DNA of 58,564 nt from Rhodocyclaceae bacterium (GTDB lineage: Bacteria > Pseudomonadota > Gammaproteobacteria > Burkholderiales > Rhodocyclaceae), in the NCBI GenBank assembly GCA_003963315.1, contig RXJP01000056.1, forward strand, positions 1 to 58,564. The letters run 5' to 3'. This document shows, in pieces, positions 13,343 through 57,880 of this stretch. Numbering within the stretch: position 1 is the first letter of the stretch; each line of letters starts with the position of its first letter. The position numbers were made by a program, and so were the translations under genes. Under the pieces are notes generated by a model. It did no database searches. It was not told the DNA's origin and saw only the letters and a program-made list of their open reading frames with translations.

Positions 13343-14089
13343 ATGAGTAAAAGAACAGCACTGGTTACAGGTGCATTGGGTGTTATCGTGACTGTGGTCA
13401 GCCAGGAATTGGCGAAAGCGGGTTGCCGGGTGGTTGCCGCCTATCATCCCCAATTCGACAAGCCCGAAGAATGGCTGAAGGAACAGGAAGCCGCCGGCTT
13501 CAAGGACTTCATCCTGGTGGCGGGCGATGTGTCCGACTTCGCTTCCTGCCAGGCCATGGTGGCCGAAGCCGAAGCCAAGGCCGGCGGTCCCATCGACATC
13601 CTGGTGAACAACGCCGGCATCACCCGCGACAAGATGTTCGCCAAGATGGAACCCGATCAGTGGAATGCGGTGATCGACACCAATCTTTCCAGCCTGTTCA
13701 ACATGACCAAGCAAGTGTCCGCCAAGATGGCCGAGCGTGGTTGGGGCCGCATCATCAATATCTCCTCGGTGAACGGCGTGAAGGGCCAGGCCGGCCAGAC
13801 CAACTACTCCGCTGCCAAGGCCGGTGTGATTGGTTTCACCAAGGCGCTGGCCCAGGAGCTGGCCGCCAAGGGCGTGACCGTGAACGCCATCGCTCCCGGC
13901 TACGTGGCCACCAAGATGGTCATGGCCATCAAGCCCGAAATCCTGCAAACCATCGTCGATTCCGTGCCCATGAAGCGTCTGGCCATGCCTGAGGAAATCG
14001 GCGGCGCCGTGGTGTATCTGGCCTCCGAAATCGCTGGCTTCGTTACCGGCGCTACGTTGAACATCAACGGCGGCCTCTACTATCAATAA
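13343..14089 (+). CDS. Second PhaB-like reductase with altered NADPH motif
   Basis: A 248-residue paralogue of the preceding reductase, plainly of the acetoacetyl-CoA reductase type: VLVNNAGITRDKMFAKM, NISSVNGVKGQAGQTNYSAAK and a C-terminal LNINGGLYYQ. The catalytic Ser, Tyr and Lys are all kept. The odd feature is the Rossmann glycine motif, which reads TGALGVIV at residues 9-16: V14 and V16 stand where the family has glycines (the neighbouring copy reads TGGMGGLG). Each could come from a single G-to-T change. The frame is otherwise intact and has a good ribosome binding site (AGGGAG, spacing 6), so it is probably expressed. It may have weak or changed cofactor binding, or a structural role; this cannot be decided from sequence. 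Confidence 0.9.
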   Translation: MSKRTALVTGALGVIVTVVSQELAKAGCRVVAAYHPQFDKPEEWLKEQEAAGFKDFILVAGDVSDFASCQAMVAEAEAKAGGPIDILVNNAGITRDKMFAKMEPDQWNAVIDTNLSSLFNMTKQVSAKMAERGWGRIINISSVNGVKGQAGQTNYSAAKAGVIGFTKALAQELAAKGVTVNAIAPGYVATKMVMAIKPEILQTIVDSVPMKRLAMPEEIGGAVVYLASEIAGFVTGATLNINGGLYYQ

Positions 14090-14101
14090 TCCGCGTTTTA
14101 T

Positions 14102-14135
14102 GGAAACATACCCCACCTGATGGCGGGGTGTTTCC
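14102..14135 (+). terminator. Hairpin after second phaB-like gene
   Basis: GGAAACATACCCC (14102-14114) can pair with GGGGTGTTTCC (14125-14135), leaving a two-base bulge. There is no T-tract after it, so it is a weak terminator candidate or an mRNA-stabilising hairpin before phaR. Confidence 0.5.
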
Positions 14136-14205
14136 CGTCGGAACTGACCCAAACATAACCATAAGGATCGCCAAACTTTGGCATCCGGGATAGAGGAGTG
14201 CAGAA

Positions 14206-14757
14206 GTGTCCGATTTGCGCCTGATTAAAAAGTATCCCAATCGTCGTCTCTACGATACCCAAACCAGCAGCTACATCACCCTGGTGGACGTCAAGGAGTT
14301 GGTCCTGAAACAGGAGGAGTTTCAGGTGGTGGATGCGAAGTCAGGGGAGGATCTGACCCGCAGCATCCTCCTCCAGATCATTCTGGAGGAGGAAGCTTGC
14401 GGCACGCCGATGTTCAGTTCCGACATCCTTGCCCAGATGATCCGTTTCTACGGTAATGCCATGCAGGGCATGATGGGAAAATACCTGGAAACCAACGTCA
14501 AGGCCTTCACCGACATGCAGGCCAAGTTGCAGGAACAGGCCCGCAGCATTTACGGCGACGGCGCTGCCGCCAACAATGTGGGCAGCAATGAGCTCTGGTC
14601 CCAGTTCCTGAATTTCCAGGGCCCCGCCATGCAGAACATGATGGGCACCTATGTGGAGCAATCCCGCAAGATGTTCCAGCAGATGCAGGACAATCTGCAA
14701 GACCAGTCCCTCAAGATGTTCTCCGGTTTTCCTTTTCCCGGCAGCGAAAAGAAGTAG
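14206..14757 (+). CDS. phaR: PHA synthesis repressor
   Basis: PhaR is a DNA-binding repressor that also binds PHA granules and controls phasin and synthase genes. The 183-residue protein has the diagnostic N-terminal domain LIKKYPNRRLYDTQTSSYIT followed by VDVKELVLKQEEFQVVDAKSGEDLTRS, then a PHB accumulation regulatory domain (ILLQIILEEE...MFSSDILAQMIRFYGNAMQ). The C-terminal third is rich in Q and M (MFQQMQDNLQDQ), which fits granule binding. The start is a GTG with GAGGAG seven bases upstream. Its position directly after the PHB genes is the usual one. TGCA-rich sequence in the phaC promoter is a possible target. Confidence 0.95.
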   Translation: MSDLRLIKKYPNRRLYDTQTSSYITLVDVKELVLKQEEFQVVDAKSGEDLTRSILLQIILEEEACGTPMFSSDILAQMIRFYGNAMQGMMGKYLETNVKAFTDMQAKLQEQARSIYGDGAAANNVGSNELWSQFLNFQGPAMQNMMGTYVEQSRKMFQQMQDNLQDQSLKMFSGFPFPGSEKK

Positions 14758-14762
14758 TTTCT

Positions 14763-14781
14763 CCCAGGCCATGGGCCTGGG
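14763..14781 (+). terminator. Perfect short hairpin after phaR
   Basis: CCCAGGCC (14763-14770) and GGCCTGGG (14774-14781) form an eight-base stem with a three-base loop, starting six bases after the phaR stop. No T-run follows, so intrinsic termination is uncertain. Confidence 0.5.
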
Positions 14782-14844
14782 CTGGTGAAGGCGGGAAGCG
14801 CATCGGGTAAACTCCGGCCCTTTCCCCCTCCGGTTTTCCCCGCC

Positions 14845-16179
14845 ATGACTGTTGTTCGCAAGAACGCTGCCCCCACTGTGGGCTTCGTTTCCCTTGGCTG
14901 TCCCAAAGCTTCCTCCGACGCCGAACAGATCCTCACCCGCCTGCGGGCCGAGGGCTATGAGATTTCCGGCAGCTACGACGGCGCCGATCTGGTGGTGGTG
15001 AATACCTGCGGCTTCATCGACGCCGCGGTGGAAGAATCCCTCGACGCCATCGGCGAGGCCCTGGCCGAGAACGGCAAGGTCATCGTCACCGGCTGCCTCG
15101 GGGCCAAGGGGGACATCGTCAAGAGCACCCACCCCAACGTGCTGGCTGTGACCGGCCCCCACGCCACCCAGGAAGTGATGGAGGCGGTGCATGCCCACCT
15201 GCCGCCGGAGCATGACCCCTACGTGGATCTGGTGCCGCCCCAGGGCATACGCCTGACGCCGGACCACTATGCCTACCTGAAAATTTCCGAAGGCTGCAAC
15301 CACCGCTGTACCTTCTGCATCATCCCCTCCCTGCGCGGCGATCTGGTGAGCCGGCCCATCGGCGATGTGCTGAAGGAGGCCGAAGCCCTGGCCGATGCCG
15401 GCGTCAAGGAACTGCTGGTGATCTCCCAGGACACCAGCGCTTACGGTGTGGACGTTAAATACCGCACCGGCTTCTGGGGCGGCAAGCCGGTCAAGACCAA
15501 GCTCTACGACCTGTGCCAGGGCCTGGGCGACTTGGGCCTGTGGGTGCGCCTGCACTACGTCTATCCCTATCCCAATGTGGATGATCTGATTCCGCTGATG
15601 GCCGAGGGCAAGATCCTGCCCTACCTGGACATTCCCTTCCAGCATGCCTCCGAGCGCATCCTCAAGTTGATGAAGCGCCCGGCTTCGTCGGAAAAAGTGC
15701 TGGAGCGTATCCAGGCCTGGCGCAAGGAAGTGCCCGACCTCACCATCCGCAGCACCTTCATCACCGGTTTCCCCGGCGAGACCGAGCGGGAATTCAACGA
15801 GCTGCTGGACTTCCTCGACGAAGCCCAGATCGACCGGGTCGGCGCCTTCGCCTATTCCGACGTGGAAGGCGCTGCGGCCAATGAATTGCCCGACCCCGTG
15901 CCCTTCGAGTTGCGGGAAGAGCGCCGCATGCGCTTGATGCAGCATCAGGAGGACATTAGCACCCAGCGCCTGGAACGCAAGATCGGCCGCCGCATCAAGG
16001 TGCTGGTGGACGACATCGACGAGGAGGGCGCCATCGCCCGTTCCGAAGGCGATGCCCCGGAGATCGACGGCCTGGTCATCGTCACCGATGGCCACGACTT
16101 GGAGATCGGCGAGTTCGCCGAGGTGACCGTGAACGATTGCGACGTGCACGACCTCTACGCCACCCTGGCGGAAGATTAA
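14845..16179 (+). CDS. rimO: Ribosomal protein S12 methylthiotransferase
   Basis: RimO is a radical-SAM enzyme that adds a methylthio group to an aspartate of ribosomal protein S12 in the cytoplasm. The 444-residue protein has the three family domains in order: an N-terminal MTTase domain ([19 protein letters not shown], with cysteines for the auxiliary 4Fe-4S cluster), the radical-SAM core with C151, C155 and C158 in [17 protein letters not shown], and a C-terminal TRAM domain. SLGCPK and the RSRPIGD-like [11 protein letters not shown] distinguish RimO from MiaB. I chose the ATG at 14845, since the upstream frame contains the phaR hairpin and reads poorly. It appears to be expressed separately from phaR. 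Confidence 0.96.
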
Positions 16180-16188
16180 GCACCACGT

Positions 16189-17592
16189 ATGGCGTCCCTG
16201 CTCGCCGCCCTCAGGCAAACCGTCGGCGACCGTCACGTCCTGACCGCCGACGAAGACACGGCCTCCTACACCGCCGACTGGCGCGGTCGCTACCAGGGGC
16301 AAGCCCTCTGCGTGGTGCGTCCCGGCAATGCCGAGGAAGCGGCCACGGTCGTGCGCCTGTGCGTCGCGGCCGGCGTGGCCGTAGTGCCCCAGGGCGGCAA
16401 CACCGGGCTATGCGGCGGTGCCACGCCCATGGGGCTGTGCCCGGAAGTGGTGGTTAGCCTCACCCGCATGAAAACCATCCGCGTCGTGGACAAGGACAAC
16501 AACACCCTCACCGTGGAAGCCGGCTGCACCCTGCACGACGCGCAGCAGGCGGCTGCCGGCGCCGGACGTTTCTTCCCCTTGTCCCTGGCGGCGGAAGGCA
16601 CCGCCACCATCGGCGGCAATCTCTCCACCAATGCCGGCGGCGTGCAGGTGCTGCGCTATGGCAACACCCGCGACCTGGTGCTGGGCATTGAGGCTGTGCT
16701 GCCCGACGGCCGCCTATGGAACGGCCTGCGCGGCCTGCGCAAGGACAACACCGGCTACGATCTGAAGCATTTGTTCATCGGCGCCGAGGGCACTTTGGGG
16801 CTGATTACCGCCGCGGTGCTCAAGCTGTTTCCCGCGCCCCGGGTCAAGGCCACCGCCTGGGTGGCCGTGGCCGATCCCGCCGCCGCCGTGGCCTTGCTGT
16901 CGCGCCTGCGGGAAACCGTGGGTGACCGGGTCACCGCGTTTGAAATCGTCGGCCGCGAGGCCCTCGACCTGGTGCTGAAACACATCCCCAACAGCCGCGA
17001 GCCCTGCGCCGATAAACACGCCTGGCAGGCCTTGGTCGAACTCTCCGACACCCTGGTTGGCGATCTGGTCACACCCCTGGAACAGGTGCTGATGGCTGCC
17101 TCCGAAGCCGGGCAAGTACTGGATGCCGTCATCGCCAACAGCGAAGCCCAGGCCGCCGCCCTGTGGTCCCTGCGGGAGAACGTCTCCGAAGCCCAGCGCA
17201 TCGAAGGCATCTCCATCAAGCACGATGTCGCGGTGCCCGTCTCCCGCATCGCCGAGTTCATCAGTCGGGCCGATGCCTTGCTGGAAGAAAAATTTCCCGG
17301 CCTGCGCATTGTCTGCTTCGGTCATATCGGTGACGGCAATCTCCACTACAACCAATCCAAACCTGCGGCCCAGGACAATGCCGCCTTCATCACCCAGAGC
17401 GACGCGGTGAACCTCGTGGTGCACGATCTGGTGCACCAACTGGGCGGCTCCATTTCCGCCGAACACGGTCTCGGCCAGCTCAAGCGGGAAGAAGTGCTGC
17501 GCTACAAGAGCGAGGTGGAGATGGACATGATGCGCGCCGTGAAGAAAGCCCTCGACCCCAAGGGCTTGATGAATCCCGGCAAGGTGCTCTGA
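16189..17592 (+). CDS. FAD-linked D-2-hydroxyacid dehydrogenase (GlcD/D2HGDH-like)
   Basis: A 467-residue flavoprotein of the FAD_binding_4 / FAD-oxidase_C family. The N-terminal half holds the PCMH-type FAD domain (VVRPGNAEEAATVVRLC, then VVPQGGNTGLCGGATP around residue 66 and NLSTNAGGVQVLRYGNTRD near 145). The C-terminal half has the substrate domain with FGHIGDGNLHYN and the ending SAEHGLGQLKREE, which carries metal- and substrate-binding His/Glu residues of D-2-hydroxyglutarate and D-lactate dehydrogenases. Electrons normally pass to an electron-transfer flavoprotein or the respiratory chain. The gene starts nine bases after rimO, so cotranscription is possible. The precise 2-hydroxyacid cannot be assigned. 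Confidence 0.9.
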   Translation: MASLLAALRQTVGDRHVLTADEDTASYTADWRGRYQGQALCVVRPGNAEEAATVVRLCVAAGVAVVPQGGNTGLCGGATPMGLCPEVVVSLTRMKTIRVVDKDNNTLTVEAGCTLHDAQQAAAGAGRFFPLSLAAEGTATIGGNLSTNAGGVQVLRYGNTRDLVLGIEAVLPDGRLWNGLRGLRKDNTGYDLKHLFIGAEGTLGLITAAVLKLFPAPRVKATAWVAVADPAAAVALLSRLRETVGDRVTAFEIVGREALDLVLKHIPNSREPCADKHAWQALVELSDTLVGDLVTPLEQVLMAASEAGQVLDAVIANSEAQAAALWSLRENVSEAQRIEGISIKHDVAVPVSRIAEFISRADALLEEKFPGLRIVCFGHIGDGNLHYNQSKPAAQDNAAFITQSDAVNLVVHDLVHQLGGSISAEHGLGQLKREEVLRYKSEVEMDMMRAVKKALDPKGLMNPGKVL

Positions 17593-17611
17593 AAATTTTT
17601 ACTCAAAAGTC

Positions 17612-17640
17612 TTTACAGCCATTGCACACCTGCCTATAAT
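17612..17640 (+). promoter_or_regulatory. Sigma-70 promoter of tRNA-Ala
   Basis: TTTACA (17612-17617) and a perfect TATAAT (17635-17640) are separated by 17 bases. The tRNA 5' end lies 16 bases downstream of the -10. GCGCG follows the -10, a GC-rich discriminator like those of stringently controlled stable RNA genes. Confidence 0.85.
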
Positions 17641-17655
17641 GCGCGTCTCTTGTTT

Positions 17656-17731
<76 letters not shown>

Positions 17732-17734
17732 AAT

Positions 17735-17769
17735 AAAAAAAGCCCGTCGGAAATTCCGACGGGCTTTTT
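17735..17769 (+). terminator. Rho-independent terminator of tRNA-Ala
   Basis: AAAAAGCCCGTCGG and CCGACGGGCTTTTT form a long GC-rich stem with a five-base loop (AAATT) and end in a T-run. It is symmetrical, so it could also stop transcription from the other strand. Confidence 0.94.
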
Positions 17770-17930
17770 GCTTTTCCGCCCTCGGATTTTCCCGTCGCCG
17801 GCGGCGGGAGAGGGGAGGCGGACAGGTATAATTTTGCTCCGGCGATTCTTGCCCCGATGGATGCAATCGCCCTCCTGTTTCCGCACTCCGTTTTCGCACC
17901 CGTTTTCGTTCTCCCTCCGGCGTTCCTACC

Positions 17931-20900
17931 ATGCCCCAAATCCTCAAGCTGCGCGGCACCGCCGCCTTTTCCGCTTCCCGTCAGTCCCGCCTGGTCGAGC
18001 AAATCCGTGCCGTGGCGCCGGGGCTTGCCGGCCTCCAGGCCGAACACTGGTATTTCGTGGAAACGGAAAGCGTCCTGCCCGAGGCCGAGCAGGCCCGCCT
18101 CAAGGATCTGCTGGGTATTCCCGCCGCATTGCCGGCGGAGGCGGCCGGTGAGTTGCTGCTGGTAACGCCTCGCATCGGCACCATTTCTCCCTGGGCCTCC
18201 AAGGCCACGGACATTGCCCGCAATTGCGGCTTTGCCGGCGTCCACCGCATTGAGCGCGGCATCGCCTACCACCTGGCCGGCAAGGGCTTGGATATTGCCG
18301 CCATCGCCGCCAAGTTGCACGACCGCATGACCGAATCGGTGCTGAACAGCCTCGACCAAGGCGAGCAACTGTTCCGCCATTTCGATCCCCAGCCCCTGAC
18401 CACGGTGGATATCCTGGCCGGCGGCCGCGCCGCCCTGGTGGCTGCCAACGGCGAACTGGGCCTGGCCCTGTCCGAGGACGAAATCGACTACCTGGTGAGC
18501 AACTTCACCAAGCTGGGCCGCAACCCCACCGACGTGGAGTTGATGATGTTCGCCCAGGCCAACTCCGAACATTGCCGCCACAAGATTTTCAACGCCAGTT
18601 GGACGGTGGACGGCCAGGACCAATCCCATTCCCTGTTCGGCATGATCCGCGAGACCCACAAGGCCCATCCCGAGGGCACGGTAGTGGCCTACTCCGACAA
18701 CGCTTCCGTGGTGGAAGGCGCGACCATCCAGCGCTTCTATCCCCGCGCCGATGGCGGCTACGCCTATTCGGAAGAAAAGACCCACATCCTGGCCAAGGTG
18801 GAAACCCACAACCATCCCACCGCCATCGCCCCCTTTGCCGGCGCCGCCACCGGTTCCGGCGGTGAGATCCGCGACGAGGGCGCCACCGGCCGGGGCTCCA
18901 AGCCCAAGGCCGGCCTCTGCGGTTTCTCCGTTTCCGACCTGAATATCCCCGGCTACAAGCAGCCCTGGGAATCCGGCTACGGCAAGCCCGAACGCATCGC
19001 CTCCAGCCTCGACATCATGATCGAGGGCCCCCTCGGCGCCGCCGCCTTCAACAACGAATTCGGCCGCCCCAACCTGGCCGGTTATTTCCGCACCTTCGAG
19101 CAGGAATTCAAGGGCGAGATGCGGGGCTACCACAAGCCCATCATGATCGCCGGCGGCGTCGGCAATATCGCCGACCGGGATTCCTTCAAGATCAAGTTCA
19201 AACCCGGTTCCCTGCTGATCCAGCTGGGCGGCCCCGGCATGCTCATCGGCCTCGGCGGCGGCGCGGCTTCCTCCATGGCCACCGGCGCCAACACCGCCGA
19301 CCTGGACTTCGCTTCCGTGCAGCGGGGCAATCCGGAAATCCAGCGGCGTGCCCAGGAGGTCATCGACCGCTGCTGGCAGATGGGTGAGCGCAATCCCATC
19401 CTGGCCATCCACGATGTGGGTGCCGGCGGCATCTCCAACGCCATGCCCGAGTTGGCCCACGACGCCGGTTGCGGCGCCAAGTTCGATCTGCGCGCACTGC
19501 CCTCCGAAGAACCCGGCATGTCGCCGCGCGAGATTTGGAGCAACGAATCGCAAGAGCGCTACGTCCTCGCCATCGCGCCGGAGCGCCTGGAAGAATTCCG
19601 CGCCCTGTGTGAGCGGGAACGTTGCCCCTTCGCCGTGCTGGGTGTCGCCACCGACGACGACCATCTCGAAGTCAAGGACGACGTGTTCGGCAACAAGCCG
19701 GTGGACATGCCCATGGAAGTGCTGCTGGGCAAGCCGCCCAAGATGCACCGTAACGCCGCCCATGCTGCGATCGAGGTGCAGGGCTTCGACACCACCGGCC
19801 TCGAGCTCAAGGAGGCTGCCGAGCGCGTGCTGCGCCTGCCTGCCGTGGCCAGCAAGAGCTTCCTCATCACCATCGGCGACCGCACCGTGGGCGGCTTCAC
19901 CGCCCGCGACCAGTTCGTCGGTCCCTGGCAGGTGCCCGTGGCCGATGTGGCGGTGACCGCCATGGGCTACGACACGACGCTGGGCGAGTGCTTCGCCATG
20001 GGCGAGCGGACCCCCATCGCCCTGGTGGATGCTGCCGCGTCCGGCCGCATGGCCGTGGGCGAAGCCATCACCAACATCGCCGCCGCCTCCATCGCCAAGC
20101 TTGGCGACATCAAGCTTTCCGCCAACTGGATGGCCGCCGCCGGCCACGGCCATGAGGACGCGGCCCTGTTCGACACGGTGAAGGCCGTGGGCCTGGCGTT
20201 CTGCCCGCAACTGGGCGTCGCCATTCCCGTGGGCAAGGATTCCCTGTCCATGCGCACCCGCTGGGAAGATCAGGGCGAAGCGAAACAAGTCACCGCGCCC
20301 CTGTCCCTCATCGTCACGTCCTTCGCCCCCTGCGCCGATGTGCGCAAGACCCTCACCCCCCAATTGCGGGCTGATGCCGAAGTGGGCGAAACCGAACTGC
20401 TGCTCATCGACCTCGGCCAAGGTAAGAACCGCCTGGGCGGCTCCGCCCTGGCGCAAGTCTTCGGTGAGGGGGCCAAGATGTCCGCCGCCGCTGTGCCCGA
20501 TGCCGACGTGGAAAGCCTCAAGGCCTTCTTCAACGTCATCCAGAAACTGAACGGCGAAGGCAAACTGCTGGCCTACCACGACCGTTCCGACGGCGGCCTG
20601 TTCGCCGCCGTGTGCGAAATGGCCTTCGCTTCCCGCGTCGGCGTATCCCTCAATATGGATGCCCTTTGCTACGACGATCTGATGAACGACGTGGACGGCA
20701 TCGAGCGCGGTCCCCGGGTCATCGAAGGCCGCTTCAACGACAAGCTCATGTCCGCCCTGTTCAACGAAGAACTGGGCGCCGTGGTGCAGATCCGTCACGC
20801 CGACCGCAGCGCCGTGATGCAGGCTTTGCGCGAGGCCGGCCTCGGTAAGTGCAGCCATCTCATCGGCAACACCAATACCGCCGACGAAGTGCGCATCTGG

Positions 20901-46181: not shown

Positions 46182-46225
46182 GGCGGCGCCTCTCTCTGTA
46201 CGGGGATTATTTTTTGCAGCAGTTT

Positions 46226-46322
46226 CCCTCCCTTGATAAGGGGAGGGACAGGGAGGGGTTTCGTTGTGCTGGTGCTGTGCGGTGAAACCCCAACCCCCCC
46301 GGCCCCCCTAGTCAGGGGGGAG
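46226..46322. repeat. Palindromic repeat pair between nifU and nifS, tails inward
   Basis: The left arm (46226-46263) is CCCTCCCTTGATAAGGGGAGGG with a tail ending GGGGTTTCG. The right arm (46284-46322) is GAAACCCCAAC, C-tract and the core CCCCCCTAGTCAGGGGGG. It ends four bases from the nifU stop, so it is transcribed within the operon and may affect the nifS level. Confidence 0.9.
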
Positions 46323-46326
46323 TGGG

Positions 46327-47223
46327 TTAGTGAATCTCGGTCAGCAGCTTGGCCGGCAGCAGGCGGATGAACTCTCCCAGGGCCTCGATCAGCTTCTGCT
46401 GCACACCGCCCAGGGTGGCCTGTTCCATCATGCAGCCGGCGCAGGCGCCCTTGAGGTTCACGTAGATGTCCTTGCCGGACACTTCCACGATTTCGATGTC
46501 GCCGCCGTCCTTGATCAGGGTGGGACGGATGGACTCCACCACTTCCTCGATCTTGCGCATGCGCTGGTAGGTGGTGAGCTGGGGCTTGGCCGCCGGCTTG
46601 GCTTCCGCCGCAGGGGCGGGGGCCGCTGTCGGGGCGGCCTTGCCTTCGGCTTCCCATTCCTGGGCGACTTTCTCCAGGATTTCCTCGATGGCTTCGTGGC
46701 AGGAGGAGCAACCGCCGCCGGCCTTGGTGTAGTTGGTCACTTCCTCCACCGTGGTCAGGCTGTTGGCCCGCACGGTGTCTTCGATCATCACGGCGTCGAT
46801 GGCGAAGCACTTGCAGATCAGCGCGCCTTCTTCGTGGTCGTCGGTCCACACTTCGCCGCGGTAGTTGGCCACGGCGGCTTGCAGGGCTTCGCGGCCCATC
46901 ACCGAGCAGTGCATCTTTTCAGGGGGCAGGCCGTCCAGGTAGTCGGCGATGTCCTGGTTGCTCACCTTGAGGGCGTCATCCAGGGTCATGCCCTTGATGA
47001 TTTCGGTCAGGGCGGAGGAGGAGGCGATGGCGGAGCCGCAGCCGAAGGTCTGGAAGTGCGCGTCGAGGATCACCTCGGTTTCCGGTTCCACCTTGAGCAT
47101 CAGCCGCAGGGCGTCGCCGCACTTGATGGAGCCCACATCGCCGACGCCATTGGCGCCTTCCAAGGGGCCGGAGTTCTTGGGGTCGAAGAAATGTTCGCGA
47201 ACCTTGTCAGAGTAATCCCACAT
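46327..47223 (-). CDS. nifU: Fe-S scaffold protein NifU
   Basis: NifU is the scaffold on which clusters for nitrogenase are built. The 298-residue protein has the full three-part layout: an IscU-like N-domain (about 1-125, with [29 protein letters not shown] and [10 protein letters not shown] providing three Cys), a central 2Fe-2S domain (about 133-180, [14 protein letters not shown] and [13 protein letters not shown]) and a C-terminal Nfu domain (about 220-298, [16 protein letters not shown]). An Ala/Pro-rich linker joins the last two. The full-length form is nearly specific to nitrogen fixation. It follows nif-iscA by 17 bases and precedes nifS. Confidence 0.97.
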
Positions 47224-47240: not shown

Positions 47241-47582
47241 TTAAGCCGAGAAGGATGAGCCGCAGGCGCAGGAGGCCGTGGCGTTGGGGTTGTTGAACTT
47301 GAATCCGGTGTGGGTCAGGCTGTCCACGAAATCGACGGTGATGCCTTCGATCATGGGGCGGCTCATGGGGTCCACCAGCAGGGTGAAGCCATCGACCTCT
47401 ACCGTGAAATCGTCCTCGCTCTTTTCCTGTTCGAGACGCAGGCCGTATTGCAGGCCGGAGCAGCCGCCGCCGGAAACGAAGATGCGCAGACCCGCCACGG
47501 GGTTTTCAGAACCCTTGATGAAACGATGGATGGCCTTGGAGGCGTTGTCTGTCAGGTTGATCATGGTGTTCTCTCCTGTCAC
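47241..47582 (-). CDS. Nif-specific A-type Fe-S carrier (IscA/HesB)
   Basis: A 113-residue A-type carrier that ferries Fe-S clusters from NifU to target proteins. The three conserved cysteines are present in [12 protein letters not shown] and CACGSSF. The start at 47582 gives [21 protein letters not shown]; an ATG six codons later (MINLTD) is an equally good start and would give a 107-residue protein. It is the first gene of the iscA-nifU-nifS operon, with a -24/-12 promoter about 45 bases upstream and a NifA site beyond that, so expression should be limited to nitrogen-fixing conditions. Confidence 0.93.
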
Positions 47583-47709: not shown

Positions 47710-47725
47710 TGTCGCATATGTGACA
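47710..47725. promoter_or_regulatory. NifA upstream activator site (TGT-N10-ACA)
   Basis: TGTCGCATATGTGACA is a perfect TGT-N10-ACA match and is itself nearly palindromic. It lies about 70 bases upstream of the -24 element of the iscA promoter, the normal range for NifA activation. Confidence 0.88.
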
Positions 47726-48202: not shown

Positions 48203-48271
48203 GGGATGGCTGGAATAGGCGGGGGCGGCGAAAATCGGCGGAGATCGGATGGCAGAACAATTCGGAGAACG

Positions 48272-48407
48272 CCCCTCCCCTGACAAGGGGAGGACGGGAG
48301 GGGTTTCGGGGTTGATGTTGTGTTGATACGAAAGCGATTTGGCCAAAACCGCAACCCCCCTGTCCCCCTCCTTCGTCAAGCTCAGGACAGGCTTGTCAGG
48401 GGGGAAC
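48272..48407. repeat. Palindromic repeat pair, tails inward, right arm with CTGAGC-type insert
   Basis: The left arm (48272-48311) is CCCCTCCCCTGACAAGGGG with a tail ending GGGGTTTCGGGG. The right arm (48345-48407) begins AAAACCGCAAC and has CCTTCGTCAAGCTCAGGACAGG inserted into its core. The pair separates two unknown nif-linked genes. Confidence 0.88.
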
Positions 48408-50338: not shown

Positions 50339-50470
50339 CTCTCCCCTGACAAGCCTGTCCTGAGCCTTGTCGAAGGAGGGAGGGACAGGGAGGGGTTTCG
50401 GTTTTGTTGAACGGTTAGTAGGCCCTCGCCACCCGGGCTAACCCCCCCGGCCCCCCTTGTCAGGGGGGAG
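50339..50470. repeat. Palindromic repeat pair between nifX and rseC, tails inward
   Basis: The left arm (50339-50405) is CTCTCCCCTGACAAG, an inserted CCTGTCCTGAGC and CTTGTCGAAGG, then a G-rich tail with GGGGTTTCGG. The right arm (50435-50470) is GGGCTAAC, C-tract and the core CCCCCCTTGTCAGGGGGG. It is another chimera of the two repeat types. Confidence 0.9.
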
Positions 50471-50495: not shown

Positions 50496-50915
50496 TCATT
50501 CGTCCCACCCCTCTTCGGCCATCTTGTCGAAGCGGCTGTCGTCGCCGCTTTGTTTCTTGATCGCCTTGTCCACCCAGGGGATGCCGCCTTCCTTGATGGC
50601 CTTGCGCAATTGGTTGAGGGTGGGCTCGATGGGTTCCTCGTCGTCGAGGCGGATCGGCTGCACGCCTGCGGCCAGCAACTGGCGTACGGCGGAAGCGCCT
50701 GCGGCCAGGCAATACACCGCCGCGCAGCCGGACAGGGATTGGATCTTGGCCGGGAGTTTGTTTTCGTTGCCGTCCATGGTTTCCGGCGGGAACTCGATCA
50801 CTTCCAGCAACTGCGCCCGCTCTTCGTCCAAGGCGTAGATGACGAAGCCTTCGGCGGCGCCGAAGTGCTGATCGATATTGGCCCGGTCGCCGGAGGCGAA
50901 AGCTACCTTGAGCAT
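50496..50915 (-). CDS. nifX: FeMo-cofactor carrier NifX
   Basis: NifX binds the NifB cofactor and the VK cluster and moves them between NifB and NifEN. The 139-residue protein begins MLKVAFASGDRANIDQHFGAAEGFVIYAL, the usual opening of the NifX/NifY/NafY C-domain fold, and has ENKLPAKIQSLSGCAAVYCLAAGASAVRQLL in the middle. I chose the ATG at 50915, 14 bases after the nifN stop, since this is the family start; a longer frame overlapping nifN is a shadow. The C-terminal end (GDDSRFDKMAEEGWDE) is acidic. It follows nifN in one transcript. Confidence 0.94.
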   Translation of the reverse strand: MLKVAFASGDRANIDQHFGAAEGFVIYALDEERAQLLEVIEFPPETMDGNENKLPAKIQSLSGCAAVYCLAAGASAVRQLLAAGVQPIRLDDEEPIEPTLNQLRKAIKEGGIPWVDKAIKKQSGDDSRFDKMAEEGWDE

Positions 50916-50928
50916 GGTGGGCGGCGCC

Positions 50929-52350
50929 TCAGTGGCCGACCAGGCCAGGGCCAGCCGGCGGGACGAGGGCGCCAGGGGATGCTCCGGCGATTTCGTGCTG
51001 GCGGGGTCCGTCGGCCCAGAAGAGGGATCGGTAGGGTTGGGCGTCATGGTGATGTCCCAGGAAAAGATTGGCGAGATCGAACAGGGCCTGTCGCGCACCG
51101 CGATAGCCCACCCAGGTGCGGGCGTAACCGCCCACCCAGTCGTACTGCGGGAAGCCTGCCCGCAACAGGGGCACGCCCAGACGTTCGGCAGCCTGGGCGG
51201 CGTGGGAATTGGAAATCACCAACTGCACCTTGCCGGCCCGGGCCATGTTCTCCATGTCTTCCAGGTCGCCGATGCGTACCTCGGCACAGGGCATGGAGGC
51301 AAGCACCTCGGCCTTGGCCGGCGCTACCGCCGCCACGATCTGGGCGCCGACGCCGGTGAGGAACTGGCCCAAGGCCACCAGCAAATCCGGATCGGCGGCC
51401 AGGGCGACGCGGTAGAAGCCGGTCATGAAATGGGTGTCCACCATGGCGTCCTGCAACTGCGCCCTTTGCCTATCCACCCGTTCCGGTACGGGCTGGCCGC
51501 TGATCTCGGCCAAGGCCAGGGTAAAGGCGTCGCAAGCATCGAGGCCGAGCAGATGGTCGAAGCGATAGTCGGGTACATGGGTGCGGGCGCGCAGCAGGTC
51601 CGCAGCCTTGTTCAGGGAGCGGCCCACCACCAGGGTGGCAGCCGATTCGCCCATGGATTCGATTTCGCTGCGGGGTGTGCCGCCCAGGGTGAGGGGCGTG
51701 GTTTCCTGGTCCACCAGATGGCCGTCGAGGGAATCGCCCACATCGGGCACCATCACCGGCCGCAGGCCGAAGGCTTCGATCCATTCCTTGATCGCCTCGG
51801 TGTCGCCGGGGGTGAGCATGGAGGAAGCCAGCACGTTCACCTGCTTCTTGCGCCGGCCCGCGGTGCGGGATTCCGGGATCAGCACGTCGATCAAGGCTTC
51901 CACCGCCAGGGCGTAGCCGGATTCCAGGCAGCCGGTGAAGTCCGGCGTGTTCACCGGCACCACGGCGATTTTTGCGAATTGGGGAAACTGCTCACGGAAA
52001 TCCCGCACCAGACGTTTGATGTCGGTGCCCTGGGTTTCCGACAGCCCCGTGGTGGGTAGGCCTATGATGTCCGGACTGTTCTTCTCGCAAATGACCTTGA
52101 GGCCTTCGATCACGTTGTCGTCGGCATTCATGACCGTGGACACCTGGTCCATGGCCGTGGTCTGCAAGGGAATCGGTTCGCGGAAATGGCGCACGAAAAA
52201 CACCTTGCCGAAAGCTGTACAACCCTGGGACCCGTGCAGCATGGGGATGGCATTCTTCAGGCCGAGAAAGGCCAGGGAAGCGCCCACAGGCTGGCTCGCC
52301 TTGAGGGGATTCACCGCCAGGGGTTTCGCGCGTTTGAGTATTTCGGCCAT
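50929..52350 (-). CDS. nifN: Nitrogenase FeMo-cofactor scaffold NifN
   Basis: NifN forms a heterotetramer with NifE, on which the cofactor precursor matures. The 473-residue protein has [51 protein letters not shown] and the cluster-ligand cysteine in the HGSQGC segment, which are family hallmarks. ATG 52350 is preferred to a GTG two codons earlier. A sigma-54 promoter lies 37 bases upstream and a NifA site beyond it, so nifN has its own promoter. In most diazotrophs nifN follows nifE directly; here about 3.4 kb with two other genes lies between them. Confidence 0.95.
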
Positions 52351-52386
52351 GGCCACGGTCCGGAAATCGGGATTACCGGAAGCTGT

Positions 52387-52401
52387 GCAATCTTTGTGCC
52401 G
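52387..52401 (-). promoter_or_regulatory. Sigma-54 promoter of nifN
   Basis: On the minus strand GGCAC, five bases, TTGCA fits the -24/-12 consensus with GG and GC ten bases apart. The -12 GC is at 52388-52387, about 37 bases before the nifN ATG. A perfect NifA site lies about 41 bases further upstream. Confidence 0.88.
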
Positions 52402-52441
52402 TTGGCTAACTTGTTGTTATGAAAGAAATGAAGGGCATGTT

Positions 52442-52457
52442 TGTCGCAAGTGCGACA
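52442..52457. promoter_or_regulatory. NifA upstream activator site (TGT-N10-ACA)
   Basis: TGTCGCAAGTGCGACA is a perfect match and nearly palindromic. It lies between the end of the small membrane gene and the nifN promoter. Spacing to the -24 element (about 41 bases) is shorter than usual but acceptable. Confidence 0.88.
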
Positions 52458-52464
52458 GGTGGAT

Positions 52465-52743
52465 TTAGTAGAAGATCACCAATCCGAGTTTGTAACATGC
52501 CGCGATGACGCCCAGGCTCAGAAGGGCGAATGCCCCGAGTTTGAACTCCGCCCACTCTCCCTCCCAGTAGCGTCCCTGCCACCACGCATACCAGTCTGGT
52601 TTGGCAGCCTCCTCAAGGTCATCTACGAAACCATGAATGTCGCCGAAGAACCACGGCCAGTAAATACCGAGGACCGCTAGCGCGATGGCCGTGGTAAAGA
52701 GGAATAGCAGTGGATGCTCAATGAGGTTGGTCAGATCATTCAT
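52465..52743 (-). CDS. Small membrane protein of unknown function (92 aa)
   Basis: A 92-residue protein with two likely transmembrane segments, about 11-30 (LLFLFTTAIALAVLGIYWPW) and 70-90 (FALLSLGVIAACYKLGLVIF), separated by a tryptophan-rich, acidic loop (DDLEEAAKPDWYAWWQG, YWEGEWAEFK). I do not recognise a family. It lies between nifN and the transglutaminase-type gene in the same direction, and together they form an insert in the nif cluster. Lower G+C than the nif genes suggests a separate origin. Its stop is eight bases from the NifA site of nifN. Confidence 0.7.
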   Translation of the reverse strand: MNDLTNLIEHPLLFLFTTAIALAVLGIYWPWFFGDIHGFVDDLEEAAKPDWYAWWQGRYWEGEWAEFKLGAFALLSLGVIAACYKLGLVIFY

Positions 52744-52865
52744 CCTTCGTATTCCCGGCGCGGCGGGTAGCGTTTATCCCCAAATGAAATAGGGCTTGGA
52801 AGAATGCGAGGTGTGTCCCGTTGGGCAATCACGGCCGGTATTGGGAAAGGGGGCGGGAGTTAAGA

Positions 52866-55673
52866 TCATTTCATTTTCCCCTTCAGTTCAAAGCCCGCGG
52901 CGACGTGTTCGATATACATGGTAATTCCCACCTTTCGCGTCGCTCGGAAGGATTCTTCGGCGGCGGTCATGCTGCCCTGGTTTTTGTAGTATTGCCCGAT
53001 ATAAAAATGAGCTTCGGCCGAATTCAGTTCCCGCTCGTCGCCGGTTTTCTTTTGGACTTCTGCCATGACGTCGTCTGGGGTGAGTAGGGACGCCAACATG
53101 GCGAAAGCGGGTCTAGGCCATGCACCTTTGGGATTCTCGGCGGCCCAGTTTTTTATTTTTTCCGGCAATGGACGTCCGGCCTGTTTCAATGTCCAACTGA
53201 GCCAGAGGGCCGCATAGATGCGCTCTTCGTCGTCATTGGACAAATCGACTGCTTTCTGGAAGTCATCGGCCGCTTCCTGGTATTTGTTCAGGTAATAGCG
53301 GGCTTGTCCCCGGCGATACATCACATTCGCGGCTTCTGCGCCCAGACTCAAGGCCTTGTTCCAGTCTGCGATAGACTTTGCGAAGTCGCCGGCATAGAAA
53401 TTGAGACTGGCCCGACAGGCCCAAGCTCGATGATATTGCGGGGTCAGCTTAACGGCCTCTTGAGCATCCTTAATCCCTTTTTCGGTTTGATCGGCGTCGG
53501 CATAGGCTTCGGCTCTATTGCACAAGACGTCGGTCATATCTTCCCCGCTGACGCGTCCATCACTGATGGTGCGGGACAATCGGTCGATGGACGTATTGAT
53601 CCTCTTGCGCATGGTCTCCTGTAATGTGGTTCGTCCCAAACCGAAGAGGCCGTTGTTTTTCAGGGCAGATTTTTCAACGGGGACAAAGCCGCGCAATTGG
53701 GTTTCCAGTTTTTTCCCATCTTCAAGAAGTTTGGAAATATCCCCTGGTGGAACGACATCATTCTTGGACTTGAATGAGGCCTTTATGTTGAATCGGCTGC
53801 CGCGGAAACTGCGGGTGGTGTCGAATTCGAAATAGTCGTTGTGCACACTCTGGTTGAAGGGATCGAGGGTCATGGCGACTTGCCCCGGCCAGTTCACGGT
53901 CAACTCGTAGCGGGCTACGTACGGGTGCAGCAGCCCGAGTACAGGAAAGTTCCGTGTTGCGCGTGTGGGCGGCTTTAAGACGCCCCGCAGATTAGAGGGG
54001 AAAAACCGCATGCTCCAAGCGTCGCCGAAATCCTTCGTCATGGCCGGTACGTTGAAGCGGGCGCTCATGGAGAAGGTATTGTTCTCGGTGTCGTCAGAGA
54101 AGGAGGGAAGGCCGTCGAGTTCTATGCCCGGATACATCTTGTCGTAGTCCGTGAGGGCCATTTTCTTTTGCTGATCCGGCGTGATGCTCTTGGTGAATAG
54201 TCGGAGGGCCTCTGCGGAGCCTCCGTGCCAGATGATTTTGGCCGTTAACTTCCCGCTGTCGCCCAGGGCACCCAGGGTGACTTCTTCGCTTACCTCGACC
54301 AGATCGCGTTCGGAGGGCTGAGCGGGAACTACCGTTTCGAGCGCTTTGGTACTGGGGTCGGCGACCAGTCCCTGGGTGCCAGCCTGTAGCGTGCCTAGCG
54401 TGGCCAAATGTCCGGACTGACCAAGACGGGTGCCGTCGATCAGATATTTGGTGCCGTTCACCTTTACTTGAACCACCGCATGATCGAAGGCATCGGGTGT
54501 CGGTAGGAACTTGCCGAGGGAGCGAGGCGAGCGTACCGACACGAATACGGGCTTGGCATCGACGCCCAATTCCCTCAGTAACGTAATCAACAGGTAACTT
54601 TTGTCCTTACAGTCGCCAAAGCGACGGGCGACGACTTCGGCGGGCGGATAGGGACGATGGGAACTTTCTCCCAGGGCAACGCTGAAATAACGAATATCGT
54701 TTTGTACCCAGGCGAGGGCGCTCCTGACCTTGTCTTCATCGTTGGGGAGGTTTTTCAGGCGAGAAACGAGTTCGGTCAATTCCGCAGGCAGTTGTGGGAC
54801 AGGCGGGAAAAGAGTGTTGGCCCATTTCGCCACTGCCTGCCAACTACCGTATTCGCTGAACTGGATAAACCGCGCCGGGAAGAAATTGTCGGGAATGTTT
54901 TCTTCCGGCTCAATGCTTTCTATCGGTCCCTGGTCCCAGGTGAGGGTGGTCATGCCTTTTGCCGTGGAAAGCTTGGGTTCGGGATGTTCGTTACGAAAGT
55001 CACCAATGTATTTCCAGGCGATGTTTCGGGTAGAGGGGTAACTGACGATGAGGCTACGCCTTTCAGTCGGGCTGAGCGTATCCCAGGAGAACTGGTCAAT
55101 GTATTCTGGACCGAGGACCGGATTGGTACCCTCGATGGAATAGGCGATGGCAACGGTGTCGCCCACCCGGACATCGGTCAATAACAGCGATGCGGTAACA
55201 ATGCCGCCATACAAGCCTTGTTCCAATCCTGCTTCCCGTTGTAGGAAACGTATTTGGACCGTATCCAACTTGTCTAGTGTTTCACCAGCGCGAAGAATCT
55301 GTAATTGGTGGAGTCTGAGCTTTTGATAGCTCGGGGCGAAAGGCAATTGAAACTGACCAATCTGGGCCAATGTGGTGGTGTCGTTGGATAGGGTGGCCCG
55401 GTTGACATAGGTCGTCGAAGTTGTGGCGCCAACATGGACTTGAGTGTCAGCCAACAAGGTGACTAGCGGAACGCTCCGGGTCGTGGTCGGGATGGATACA
55501 GGCTTGACCCAAGCTGGCGGCGTGCGATCCTTGGCAAAGGCACCGACAGGCAGCTTGGCATCCACCCACGCTTCCTGTGGCTGGTCGGCAGCGGCATGGC
55601 AGAAACCAATCCCTCCAAAGGGTAGAAGGCAGACCAGTACGAGATACAGAGTATGCAGCTTGAAAGATTTCAC
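52866..55673 (-). CDS. Exported DUF3857 / transglutaminase-like / TPR protein
   Basis: A 935-residue protein with a signal peptide (TLYLVLVCLLPFGGIGFCHAAA, cleavage near residue 29). A DUF3857 domain (about 60-230) is followed by a transglutaminase-like domain (about 285-400) with the triad Cys in RRFGDCKDKSYLLITLL, His in DAFDHAVVQVKV and Asp in YLIDGTRLG. A beta-rich middle part and several TPR repeats near 700-930 complete it. The layout matches large exported DUF3857 proteins of unknown role, thought to act in the periplasm or outer envelope. It is not a nif gene: it splits nifE from nifN and its base composition is lower in G+C. It may have been inserted there. Confidence 0.88.
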   Translation of the reverse strand: MKSFKLHTLYLVLVCLLPFGGIGFCHAAADQPQEAWVDAKLPVGAFAKDRTPPAWVKPVSIPTTTRSVPLVTLLADTQVHVGATTSTTYVNRATLSNDTTTLAQIGQFQLPFAPSYQKLRLHQLQILRAGETLDKLDTVQIRFLQREAGLEQGLYGGIVTASLLLTDVRVGDTVAIAYSIEGTNPVLGPEYIDQFSWDTLSPTERRSLIVSYPSTRNIAWKYIGDFRNEHPEPKLSTAKGMTTLTWDQGPIESIEPEENIPDNFFPARFIQFSEYGSWQAVAKWANTLFPPVPQLPAELTELVSRLKNLPNDEDKVRSALAWVQNDIRYFSVALGESSHRPYPPAEVVARRFGDCKDKSYLLITLLRELGVDAKPVFVSVRSPRSLGKFLPTPDAFDHAVVQVKVNGTKYLIDGTRLGQSGHLATLGTLQAGTQGLVADPSTKALETVVPAQPSERDLVEVSEEVTLGALGDSGKLTAKIIWHGGSAEALRLFTKSITPDQQKKMALTDYDKMYPGIELDGLPSFSDDTENNTFSMSARFNVPAMTKDFGDAWSMRFFPSNLRGVLKPPTRATRNFPVLGLLHPYVARYELTVNWPGQVAMTLDPFNQSVHNDYFEFDTTRSFRGSRFNIKASFKSKNDVVPPGDISKLLEDGKKLETQLRGFVPVEKSALKNNGLFGLGRTTLQETMRKRINTSIDRLSRTISDGRVSGEDMTDVLCNRAEAYADADQTEKGIKDAQEAVKLTPQYHRAWACRASLNFYAGDFAKSIADWNKALSLGAEAANVMYRRGQARYYLNKYQEAADDFQKAVDLSNDDEERIYAALWLSWTLKQAGRPLPEKIKNWAAENPKGAWPRPAFAMLASLLTPDDVMAEVQKKTGDERELNSAEAHFYIGQYYKNQGSMTAAEESFRATRKVGITMYIEHVAAGFELKGKMK

Positions 55674-55789: not shown

Positions 55790-57205
55790 CTAGGCCACCA
55801 GCGGCTGCCCCACCGCCTTCTGCACCGCCCAGGGGGCGGGGGCGCGCACCTTGTTCCATACCGGGCTTTCCAGGGTCAGGGCGAGCTGGCGCACCAGTTC
55901 CAGCATGCCGTCGTAGCCGGCGTAGCCGAACTCGCGCTCCTGGTTGATGTCGAGGAAGGGGATGCGGGCCTTGAGGGCGGTGTAGAGGTTGCGGCCACCG
56001 GCGATGAGGATGTCGGCCTGGTATTCCTTGTATACGCCGAGCAGGGCCTTGGGGCTGCCGTCGGTGATCATCTTCACATCGTCGCCCATGATCTCGCGGA
56101 TGCGTTCCTTGTCTTCCTCGGTGGATTTGTTGGTGCCGGTGGCCACCACGTTCATGCCCAGGTCTTGTAGGGCGGACACCACCGACCAGCTCTTGACGCC
56201 TCCGGTGTAAAGCAGCACACGCTTGCCTTGCAGGCGTTCGCGCCAGGGTTCCAGGGCGGCCTTGATCTTGGCCTCCTCCCGGGCGATGAGGGCCTCGGTG
56301 CGGGCGGTGAGATCGGGGTCGCCGATCAGGCGGGCGAAATCGCGGAAGGCCTGGGAAGTGTCGGTGATGCCGTAGAAGCTGCCCTCGAAGAAGGGCACGC
56401 CGAAGTTGTCTTGCAGCTTGCGGGCCACGTTGAGCAGGGCCTTGGCGCAGACCACCATGGACACTTCGGCCCGGTGCATGGTTTGCACTTCATGGAAGCG
56501 GGTGTCGCCGGACAGGGTGCACAGGATGCGCAGGCCCAGTTCGTCGAAGAGGGGGGCCAGGTACCAGAACTCGCCGGCGATGTTGTATTCGCCAATCAGG
56601 TTCACGTCATGGCTTTTCACGCCGGCACCGAGCTTGGCTTGCGTGGCGGCGGAGACGGGTTCCGGCTCGCGGGTGCCGATCACATGCTTGAACATGGCCT
56701 CGCCGGCGATGCGGTTGCCCAGGTTCTTGGTGCCGTAGAAGCCGGCGCTGTCCACCGGCACCACGGGCACGCCCCAGCGCTCGGCGGCAGCCTTGCACAC
56801 GGCGTCGATATCGTCGCCGGTGAGGGCCGGAACGCAGGTGTTGTAGATGAATACGGCCTTGGGGCTGTAGTCGTCGATGGCCTGTTTGATGGCATGGAAC
56901 AGGCGCTTCTCGCCGCGGCCCATGATCACATCTTGTTCCGTGAGGTCGGTGGTCATGCCGATGCGGTAGAGGGTGGGGCCGCTGGAGCGGGTGCCGCGAT
57001 TGTCCCAACTGGAGCCGGCGCAGGCGATGGGGCCATGGACGATGTGGGCCACATCGGCGATGGGCAGCAGGGCGATCTGGGCGCCGTCGAAGGAGCAGCC
57101 GCCGGCGGTGGCGCCGGGCTTGGTCTTGGCGCAGCCGGACTTTTCCTTCTTGTTGTGGGCGCAGGCGGGCTCGTCGAGCAGGGCGGCGACTTCACTGGCT
57201 TTCAT
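55790..57205 (-). CDS. nifE: Nitrogenase FeMo-cofactor scaffold NifE
   Basis: NifE pairs with NifN to form the scaffold for FeMo-cofactor maturation. The 471-residue protein has [30 protein letters not shown] in outline, [20 protein letters not shown], and a C-terminal half with [12 protein letters not shown] and [20 protein letters not shown]. The cysteines expected to hold the P-cluster-like 4Fe-4S are in [16 protein letters not shown] and NTCVPAL. It is preceded by an unknown gene under a sigma-54 promoter 0.7 kb upstream and is probably cotranscribed with it. It is followed by a foreign-looking gene rather than by nifN. Confidence 0.96.
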
Positions 57206-57257
57206 GACGGCTCCTTCATGGATCGGGCTACGGCGACGTTTCTACAATTTTGGGCTG

Positions 57258-57289
57258 CTGCCGATTGTCGGGTTTGCAACAATCGGCAG
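57258..57289. repeat. 11-bp inverted repeat upstream of nifE
   Basis: CTGCCGATTGT and ACAATCGGCAG are exact complements with a ten-base loop. It lies between the unknown gene and nifE. TTGCAACAA is repeated at 57274-57282 and again about 20 bases later. It could be an mRNA-processing or attenuating hairpin; no T-run follows on the minus strand. Confidence 0.6.
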
Positions 57290-57322
57290 GCTTGCAACAA
57301 GGATTGGCGCTAAAGGCCGGGC

Positions 57323-57880
57323 TTACACCGGGCCGCGACCGGCGCGTTTGAGTTCCACAATGCGGCCCAGGGCCTCGTCGAAGGAAACCTTGTCGCCCTT
57401 GGGTTTGTAGTCGGAGAGGGCCTTGTGAACCGTGACGATCTTTTCCACCGGGTTCTGGCCTTTGAAGTCGCCTTTTTCCAGGGCGGCCAGGTCGATCAGT
57501 TCGTTCCAGATCAGGCCTTCCTGCATGGAAATGGCGGAAATGGCATAGCCGCCCAGGTCAATCACCAGGGGCTTGGCGATGTTCACCACGAAGATGATGA
57601 GGCGTGCGTCGGCGGCGAAATCGTCCTTGTAGTACTGGAGCACCCGGGGCAGGTCGGCCAGGTCGTCCAGGCTGCCGACGTAGAGCTTGATCTTGTCGTC
57701 TTCGGCCAGGACCACGGTGTTCTTGATGGTGTGGGTGGGGGGCAGGCGATGGCCCAAAGCGTCGCCGACTTCACCCAGGCCAAGGACGAGATCGCCCCGG
57801 TAGGCGGCGTATTTGCCGTCGGCTTCCTTGAAATTCATGTTGAACAGCAGGCCTTTGGTTTCGTAGGTGTCGAACAGCAT
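57323..57880 (-). CDS. Nif-linked protein of unknown function (185 aa)
   Basis: A 185-residue soluble protein that I do not recognise. It starts MLFDTYETKGLLFNMNFKEADGKYAAYRGD and seems to be alpha/beta: two beta-rich segments (NTVVLAEDDKIKLYVGSLDDL, ARLIIFVVNIAKPLVIDLGGYAISA) followed by helices. There is no cysteine cluster. A well-formed sigma-54 promoter sits about 46 bases upstream, and nifE follows 117 bases downstream, so it is almost surely a nitrogen-fixation gene. Its position between the nifHDK side and nifE would suit a protein involved in cofactor insertion, but that is inference only. Confidence 0.82.
   Translation of the reverse strand: MLFDTYETKGLLFNMNFKEADGKYAAYRGDLVLGLGEVGDALGHRLPPTHTIKNTVVLAEDDKIKLYVGSLDDLADLPRVLQYYKDDFAADARLIIFVVNIAKPLVIDLGGYAISAISMQEGLIWNELIDLAALEKGDFKGQNPVEKIVTVHKALSDYKPKGDKVSFDEALGRIVELKRAGRGPV

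Follow-up and report, generated by a model that had tools for sequence, protein, structure and literature searches.

Separation of nifE from nifN in a Rhodocyclaceae bacterium: promoter motifs before nifN and variable gene content at the junction in related loci

NifE and NifN assemble into a single scaffold complex, and the adjacency of their genes is a textbook case of operons holding partners together. A classical case of a lone nifN with its own promoter is that of Sinorhizobium meliloti. On pSymA (CP140933.1) this nifN is flanked by nodD1 and nolG and has no annotated nifE within 12 kb, and a review counts nifN among the NifA targets beside, not within, the nifHDKE group (PMC7020829). No matching NifA/sigma-54 pair was detected upstream of it (the best site scored 0.76, at -894; TGT-N10/11-ACA occurs at -526). 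S. meliloti is an alphaproteobacterium with a separate history from the betaproteobacterial nif lineage considered here, and its nifN lies far off on the replicon, whereas in our locus the two genes are 3.4 kb apart. The cases are alike in principle but are not the same event; the lone nifN of S. meliloti is a separate precedent. In the canonical nifENX arrangement of beta- and gammaproteobacterial loci (L040 and L052 in our set) the same genes are present, with nifN followed by nifX; however, nifE and nifN are separated by 5-205 bp and no NifA site precedes nifN, whereas our locus has both a gap and a site. In the nifHDKEN group of Rhizobium binae the spacing is 77 bp. A survey describes nif genes as clustered, with nifDK sometimes adjoining nifEN (PMC3464626), and the nif table of the D. 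aromatica RCB genome paper has no row for nifE or nifN in the portions shown (PMC2907700). A literature search that reached few subscription papers found no report of a recurrent nifE-nifN split.

The locus lies in a stretch of 58,564 nucleotides from contig RXJP01000056.1 of a Rhodocyclaceae bacterium, hereafter the window. The list of open reading frames gives the order, on the minus strand, as nifE, a 935-aa DUF3857/transglutaminase/TPR ORF, a 92-aa membrane-protein ORF, nifN and nifX. In the split nifENX unit the upstream half is nifE (55790..57205, minus strand, 471 aa), which scores 695.7 bits against TIGR01283 (cut-off 505.1) and is up to 88% identical to its relatives, the highest value being to L039. 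The first gene of the other unit, nifN (50929..52350, minus strand, 473 aa from the ATG), scores 605.6 bits against TIGR01285 (cut-off 326.8). Both scores exceed the curated cut-offs and the two names are firm. The nifX-like gene behind nifN (50496..51098, minus strand) matches Pfam Nitro_FeMo-Co and has a TIGR02663 score of 96.9 bits, under the cut-off of 112; its start as called is probably too far upstream. The nifE stop and the earliest start codon possible for nifN are 3,433 bp apart, in agreement with the separation of about 3.4 kb in the original prediction. The window therefore shows the split arrangement as we define it, namely nifE and nifN more than 500 bp apart, nifN with promoter motifs of its own and nifX behind nifN.

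The identity of the intervening genes, predicted as a DUF3857 protein and a small membrane protein, was confirmed by Pfam and hydropathy. The 935-aa ORF (52866..55673, minus strand) matches DUF3857 (2.5e-30), Transglut_core (6.3e-10) and TPR families, and hydropathy reveals a hydrophobic N-terminal segment, as in an exported protein. Its residues Cys355, His398 and Asp413 are invariant in 7/7 aligned sequences and may constitute a catalytic triad; with DUF3857, Transglut_core and this candidate Cys-His-Asp set, the protein fits the DUF3857-type transglutaminase-like superfamily, the activity being predicted. The six exported DUF3857/transglutaminase/TPR relatives in the alignment are 27-45% identical to it and share its domains and candidate triad, but none of those examined adjoins nif genes, as the gene in the window does. 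The 92-aa ORF (52465..52743, minus strand) has two hydrophobic stretches (approximately residues 7-33 and 65-92) and matches no family in Pfam, NCBIfam or PADLOC. As was predicted, the intervening DNA is of lower G+C than the window as a whole (55.0% vs 62.7%), and of 554 segments of 3.2 kb in the window the one starting at 52301 has the lowest G+C. At third codon positions, G+C is 0.64 and 0.68 in the two cargo genes, compared with 0.89 in nifE and 0.81 in nifN, and the genes between nifE and nifN are foreign-looking. Neither cargo protein had a tblastn match at E 1e-3 in the 80 loci nearest by nifE. Within the family, DUF3857 relatives at E<=1e-30 occur in 15/395 genomes (the window's own being one), and eight stretches around such relatives (G174, G144, G155, G012, G066, G097, G165 and G014) contained no relative of nifE or nifN, the weak tblastn matches there having E >=0.33. 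In G012 an arginyl-tRNA synthetase gene lies on one side of the DUF3857 gene, and approximately 2.6 kb upstream of it is a sequence that weakly matches the 92-aa protein (32% over 79 residues, E 0.004), perhaps by chance. Origin from a mobile element or genomic island was considered and rejected: neither cargo ORF matches an integrase or transposase family and no direct repeat flanks the insert, its seven short direct-repeat families being two-copy and all internal. A role as defence cargo was likewise rejected, with no PADLOC family found for either cargo protein or for the 185-aa ORF upstream of nifE.

Between the cargo and nifN the motif scan detected, on the minus strand, a NifA upstream activator site of the form TGT-N10-ACA, TGTCGCACTTGCGACA (52442..52457), and a sigma-54 promoter-like site, ACGGCACAAAGATTGCA (52386..52402), at -52 from the nifN ATG. 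They are 55 bp apart from start to start and are the only such pair on either strand of the window. This spacing resembles that of relatives, the 17 split loci listed having 55-60 bp between the two sites before nifN. Such pairs are far from random, with 90 found in 80 real loci vs 0.67 per 2.44 million strand-bases of block-shuffled sequence, although TGT-N10-ACA alone shows no excess over chance in the window (6 found vs 6.26 expected). A strict sigma-54 pattern has no match in the window; it misses the nifN site because C replaces the T of TGGC, so that AC precedes GGCAC where the consensus has pyrimidine-T. The site nevertheless scores 0.87 of 1, with weights that we set ourselves on a consensus, and GG-N10-GC (-24/-12) lies close before the nifN start codon, at 52402-52386. 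The motif pair (52457-52386) thus bears out the claim that nifN has its own sigma-54 promoter and NifA site, and it is likely that NifA and sigma-54 drive nifN in the window. A further NifA-like site, TGTCGCATATGTGACA, is found at 47710-47725, upstream of an IscA-like gene at 47582 on the minus strand, with no sigma-54 site at the usual 50-66 bp.

Unlike the nifE of its relatives, the nifE of the window has no recognisable NifA/sigma-54 pair in the upstream interval (57206-57322). A single TGT-N10-ACA at -76 (57266-57281) lies within an 11-bp inverted repeat seen by eye (CTGCCGATTGT...ACAATCGGCAG), with no sigma-54 site behind it. By comparison, 63 of the 64 closed loci (those in which both nifE and nifN were seen) have a NifA site before nifE, and in the other, L117, the contig begins in the first codons of nifE. 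Two units under NifA would keep NifE and NifN in step, but this reading is weaker for the window, because there the motifs are seen for nifN only; matched control of its nifE and nifN is doubtful for the same reason. The gene upstream of nifE (57323-57880, minus strand) encodes a 185-aa protein without a Pfam, NCBIfam or PADLOC family, which has matches in 64/395 family genomes, its own included; no nifE, nifN or nifX was found nearby in the 11 stretches examined. This gene has a good sigma-54-like site, TAGGCACCCTATTTGCT, but no standard NifA site. In L025, at 13547-19120 and just beyond the window end, nifE is followed on the opposite strand by a nifQ-like ORF, in which a short run of N occurs, and by a molybdate uptake set (ModD-, ModE-, ModA-, ModB- and ModC-like, assigned by eye). 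Similar G+C-rich intergenic sequences, again noted by eye, occur at approximately 46220-46330, 48270-48400 and 50340-50470 (CCCCTGACAAGG.../...CCCCCCGGCCCCCC) in gaps between genes of the nif region, and look like a dispersed repeat family.

Related loci were gathered with the window's NifE, and the best 80 of the 210 found were examined; these are close relatives and not a census. The two genes are adjacent in 45/80 loci, with a gap of 5-205 bp, and split in 19/80 (587-7263 bp). In a further 12/80 nifN lies outside the fetched stretch (hereafter 'apart') and 4/80 end too near nifE to classify. The split state therefore accounts for 19 of 64 closed loci. A closer inspection of the 'apart' loci located nifN elsewhere in 11/12, none being found for L101. 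It lies approximately 7.8, 9.9 and 15.8 kb behind nifE in L042, L053 and L106, and approximately 95 kb away on the other side in L075, in each case on the same contig as judged by its length; in the other seven it is on another contig, which in drafts is not necessarily far. In Azonexus sp. R2A61, nifE and nifN are on two contigs of 717 and 974 kb. Among Rhodocyclales and Nitrosomonadales the split is recurrent, and its cargo differs. Thirty cargo ORFs from 16/19 split loci were scanned, of which 20 have Pfam families and 10 do not. The families include HipA, Fic with HD and MmeI, FIST, a PEP-CTERM lectin-type protein, MCP/CheB, 7TMR-DISM-GGDEF, FixG and hemerythrin, cytochrome c peroxidase, methyltransferase, GNAT and TPR, among others, with no transposase or integrase among the 20 family-matched ORFs. 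Cargo lies in either orientation, and 134/158 gap ORFs have no match among those of the other loci; this count takes in the window's two and the ORFs that lie past nifE in 'apart' loci. The splits of Dechloromonas/Azonexus and L039 have the same breakpoint and the same promoter layout before nifN as the window, but their cargo consists of HipA, GGDEF, MCP, TPR, Fic/MmeI and others, where the window has DUF3857. The same cargo between nifE and nifN in relatives, which would have told against the original prediction, was absent (0/80 loci). On the other hand, the view of the split as one peculiar insertion, as that prediction had implied, is not supported, since the split recurs with other cargo in 19/64 closed loci and 12 more loci are 'apart'.

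The presence of a promoter follows the gap without exception in the sample. Within 350 bp upstream of nifN, TGT-N10-ACA was found in 0/45 adjacent loci and in 19/19 split loci, plus the window. In the split loci the sigma-54 site scores 0.86-0.93 and lies approximately 51-57 bp before nifN (125 bp in L051). All ten 'apart' nifN genes with upstream sequence have NifA and sigma-54 sites (sigma-54 scores 0.88-0.94), the eleventh being truncated at its 5′ end, where the contig stops. Some adjacent loci (L061, L092 and L063) have a sigma-54 site alone (0.83-0.90), inside the end of nifE and without a NifA site. No sampled locus combines the promoter with less than 587 bp of extra DNA, and a promoter-first intermediate was thus not seen. 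Other junctions behave differently. Both nifD and nifK were among the matches listed in 17/48 genomes, on one contig in 16 and on two contig ends in G428 (the other 31/48 have no such pair among the matches listed); they are adjacent in 16/16 same-contig pairs, at 338-430 bp from domain to domain, and 11 of these 16 come from genomes with split or apart nifE/nifN. Likewise, nifN and nifX are contiguous in 62/62 loci. As both pairs stay joined, the break is particular to the nifE|nifN boundary among the junctions tested. The idea that the nifN promoter arose by copying that of nifE was rejected as unsupported, spacer identity being 0.40 within a locus vs 0.38 across loci (17/19 split loci had both segments).

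The age of the promoter relative to the cargo was approached through the sequences upstream of nifN. When the sequences were compared without gaps and anchored at the sigma-54 site, 36/71 non-motif positions were identical between the window and L039, a value equalled in 2/300,000 shuffles, with 29 possible partners and the next best at 37%. However, a gapped alignment score does not single out this pair (z 1.3). L039 carries a HipA-type gene in place of DUF3857. As the window's promoter resembles that of L039 despite the other cargo, the promoter is likely to be older than the cargo in this pair; we go no further than likely because the gapped and ungapped scores disagree in strength. The suggestion that the nifN promoter was a response to the present insert is, on the same resemblance, probably not correct. 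The upstream regions of nifN are clearly alike in Dechloromonas/Azonexus (mean z 5.0, 64 pairs compared) and in L058, L059 and L088, but not by the gapped score in the window's group (mean z -0.05). A single origin of all splits was rejected: the window's promoter is dissimilar to those of L042 and L111 (p about 0.5), whereas the latter two are alike (p 0.0002). Changes of state number nine on the NifE tree and nine on the NifN tree, at least five being forced by well-supported branches, and seven on a concatenated 45-row tree. With equal costs, one reconstruction gives six splits and three rejoins, but a change of costs reverses the state assigned to the deep nodes. The concatenated tree places L111 (split), L048 (apart) and the window as earlier branches than a well-supported clade of 16 members, 14 of them adjacent. 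Adjacent loci fall between the window and L039 on this tree, and therefore either the genes would have rejoined or the module would have moved between lineages. The adjacent L092 is nested among split loci in the NifE, NifN and concatenated trees (compare L097 and L102), and is a candidate for the rejoining of separated operon genes, or for recombination across the junction.

Taken together, these data make it probable that nifENX underwent fission into two units, leaving a permissive gap in which cargo turns over. In such a fission nifE would be placed in one unit and nifN-nifX in another with its own NifA-activated sigma-54 promoter; the gap would be freed from the need for a single message, and unrelated chromosomal genes could enter, leave and be replaced there. 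The exported DUF3857 transglutaminase-like TPR protein and the small membrane protein, which have no known role in nitrogen fixation, would be its present passengers in the window, and are presumably neutral to nitrogen fixation. It is unlikely, by comparison, that a single recent insertion of the DUF3857 and membrane-protein genes interrupted an intact nifENX, the nifN promoter being gained or brought along. The low G+C of the insert relative to the window would fit such an event, as would the absence of its genes from all 80 other loci and the sporadic distribution of DUF3857 relatives (15/395 family genomes including its own, without nif neighbours in 8 stretches). However, L111 and L048, which branch next to the window on the concatenated tree, are likewise split or apart, the nifN promoter resembles that of L039 with different cargo, and neither an integrase or transposase in the cargo nor a direct repeat flanking the insert was found.

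That the cargo is tied to nitrogen fixation (e.g. envelope remodelling under diazotrophy) and was recruited as useful there is improbable. It does lie on the same strand as nifE and 116 bp behind it, its candidate catalytic residues are intact, and read-through from nifE is possible, with no strong terminator found between them in a scan that was itself uninformative. Yet content differs between loci and lies in either orientation, and the 80 loci and 8 DUF3857 stretches showed no second case of these genes close to nif genes. As the genome is a draft of 168 contigs, an assembly or binning artefact joining unrelated contigs was also considered, but is very improbable: the contig of 64,952 bp runs through intact genes, and similar splits occur in the isolate records L076, L084 and L094 and in L096, a MAG record titled as a chromosome.

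In these loci the nifE-nifN link has been cut repeatedly at one junction, with nifDK and nifNX intact where tested, and a regulatory motif separates the adjacent from the split state without exception in the sample. Whether promoter or insertion comes first in operon splitting becomes a testable question with real relatives. For builders of nif clusters, it suggests that the nifE|nifN boundary tolerates separate promoters. We tentatively propose, beyond this, that in Rhodocyclales and Nitrosomonadales the boundary may be a promoter-gated permissive junction, at which an old NifA promoter before nifN would split the operon; cargo would then turn over in the gap, and some lineages would subsequently rejoin the genes and lose the promoter. 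If true, operon fission and fusion would form a reversible cycle here, tied to a single fixed junction in an otherwise rigid gene set.
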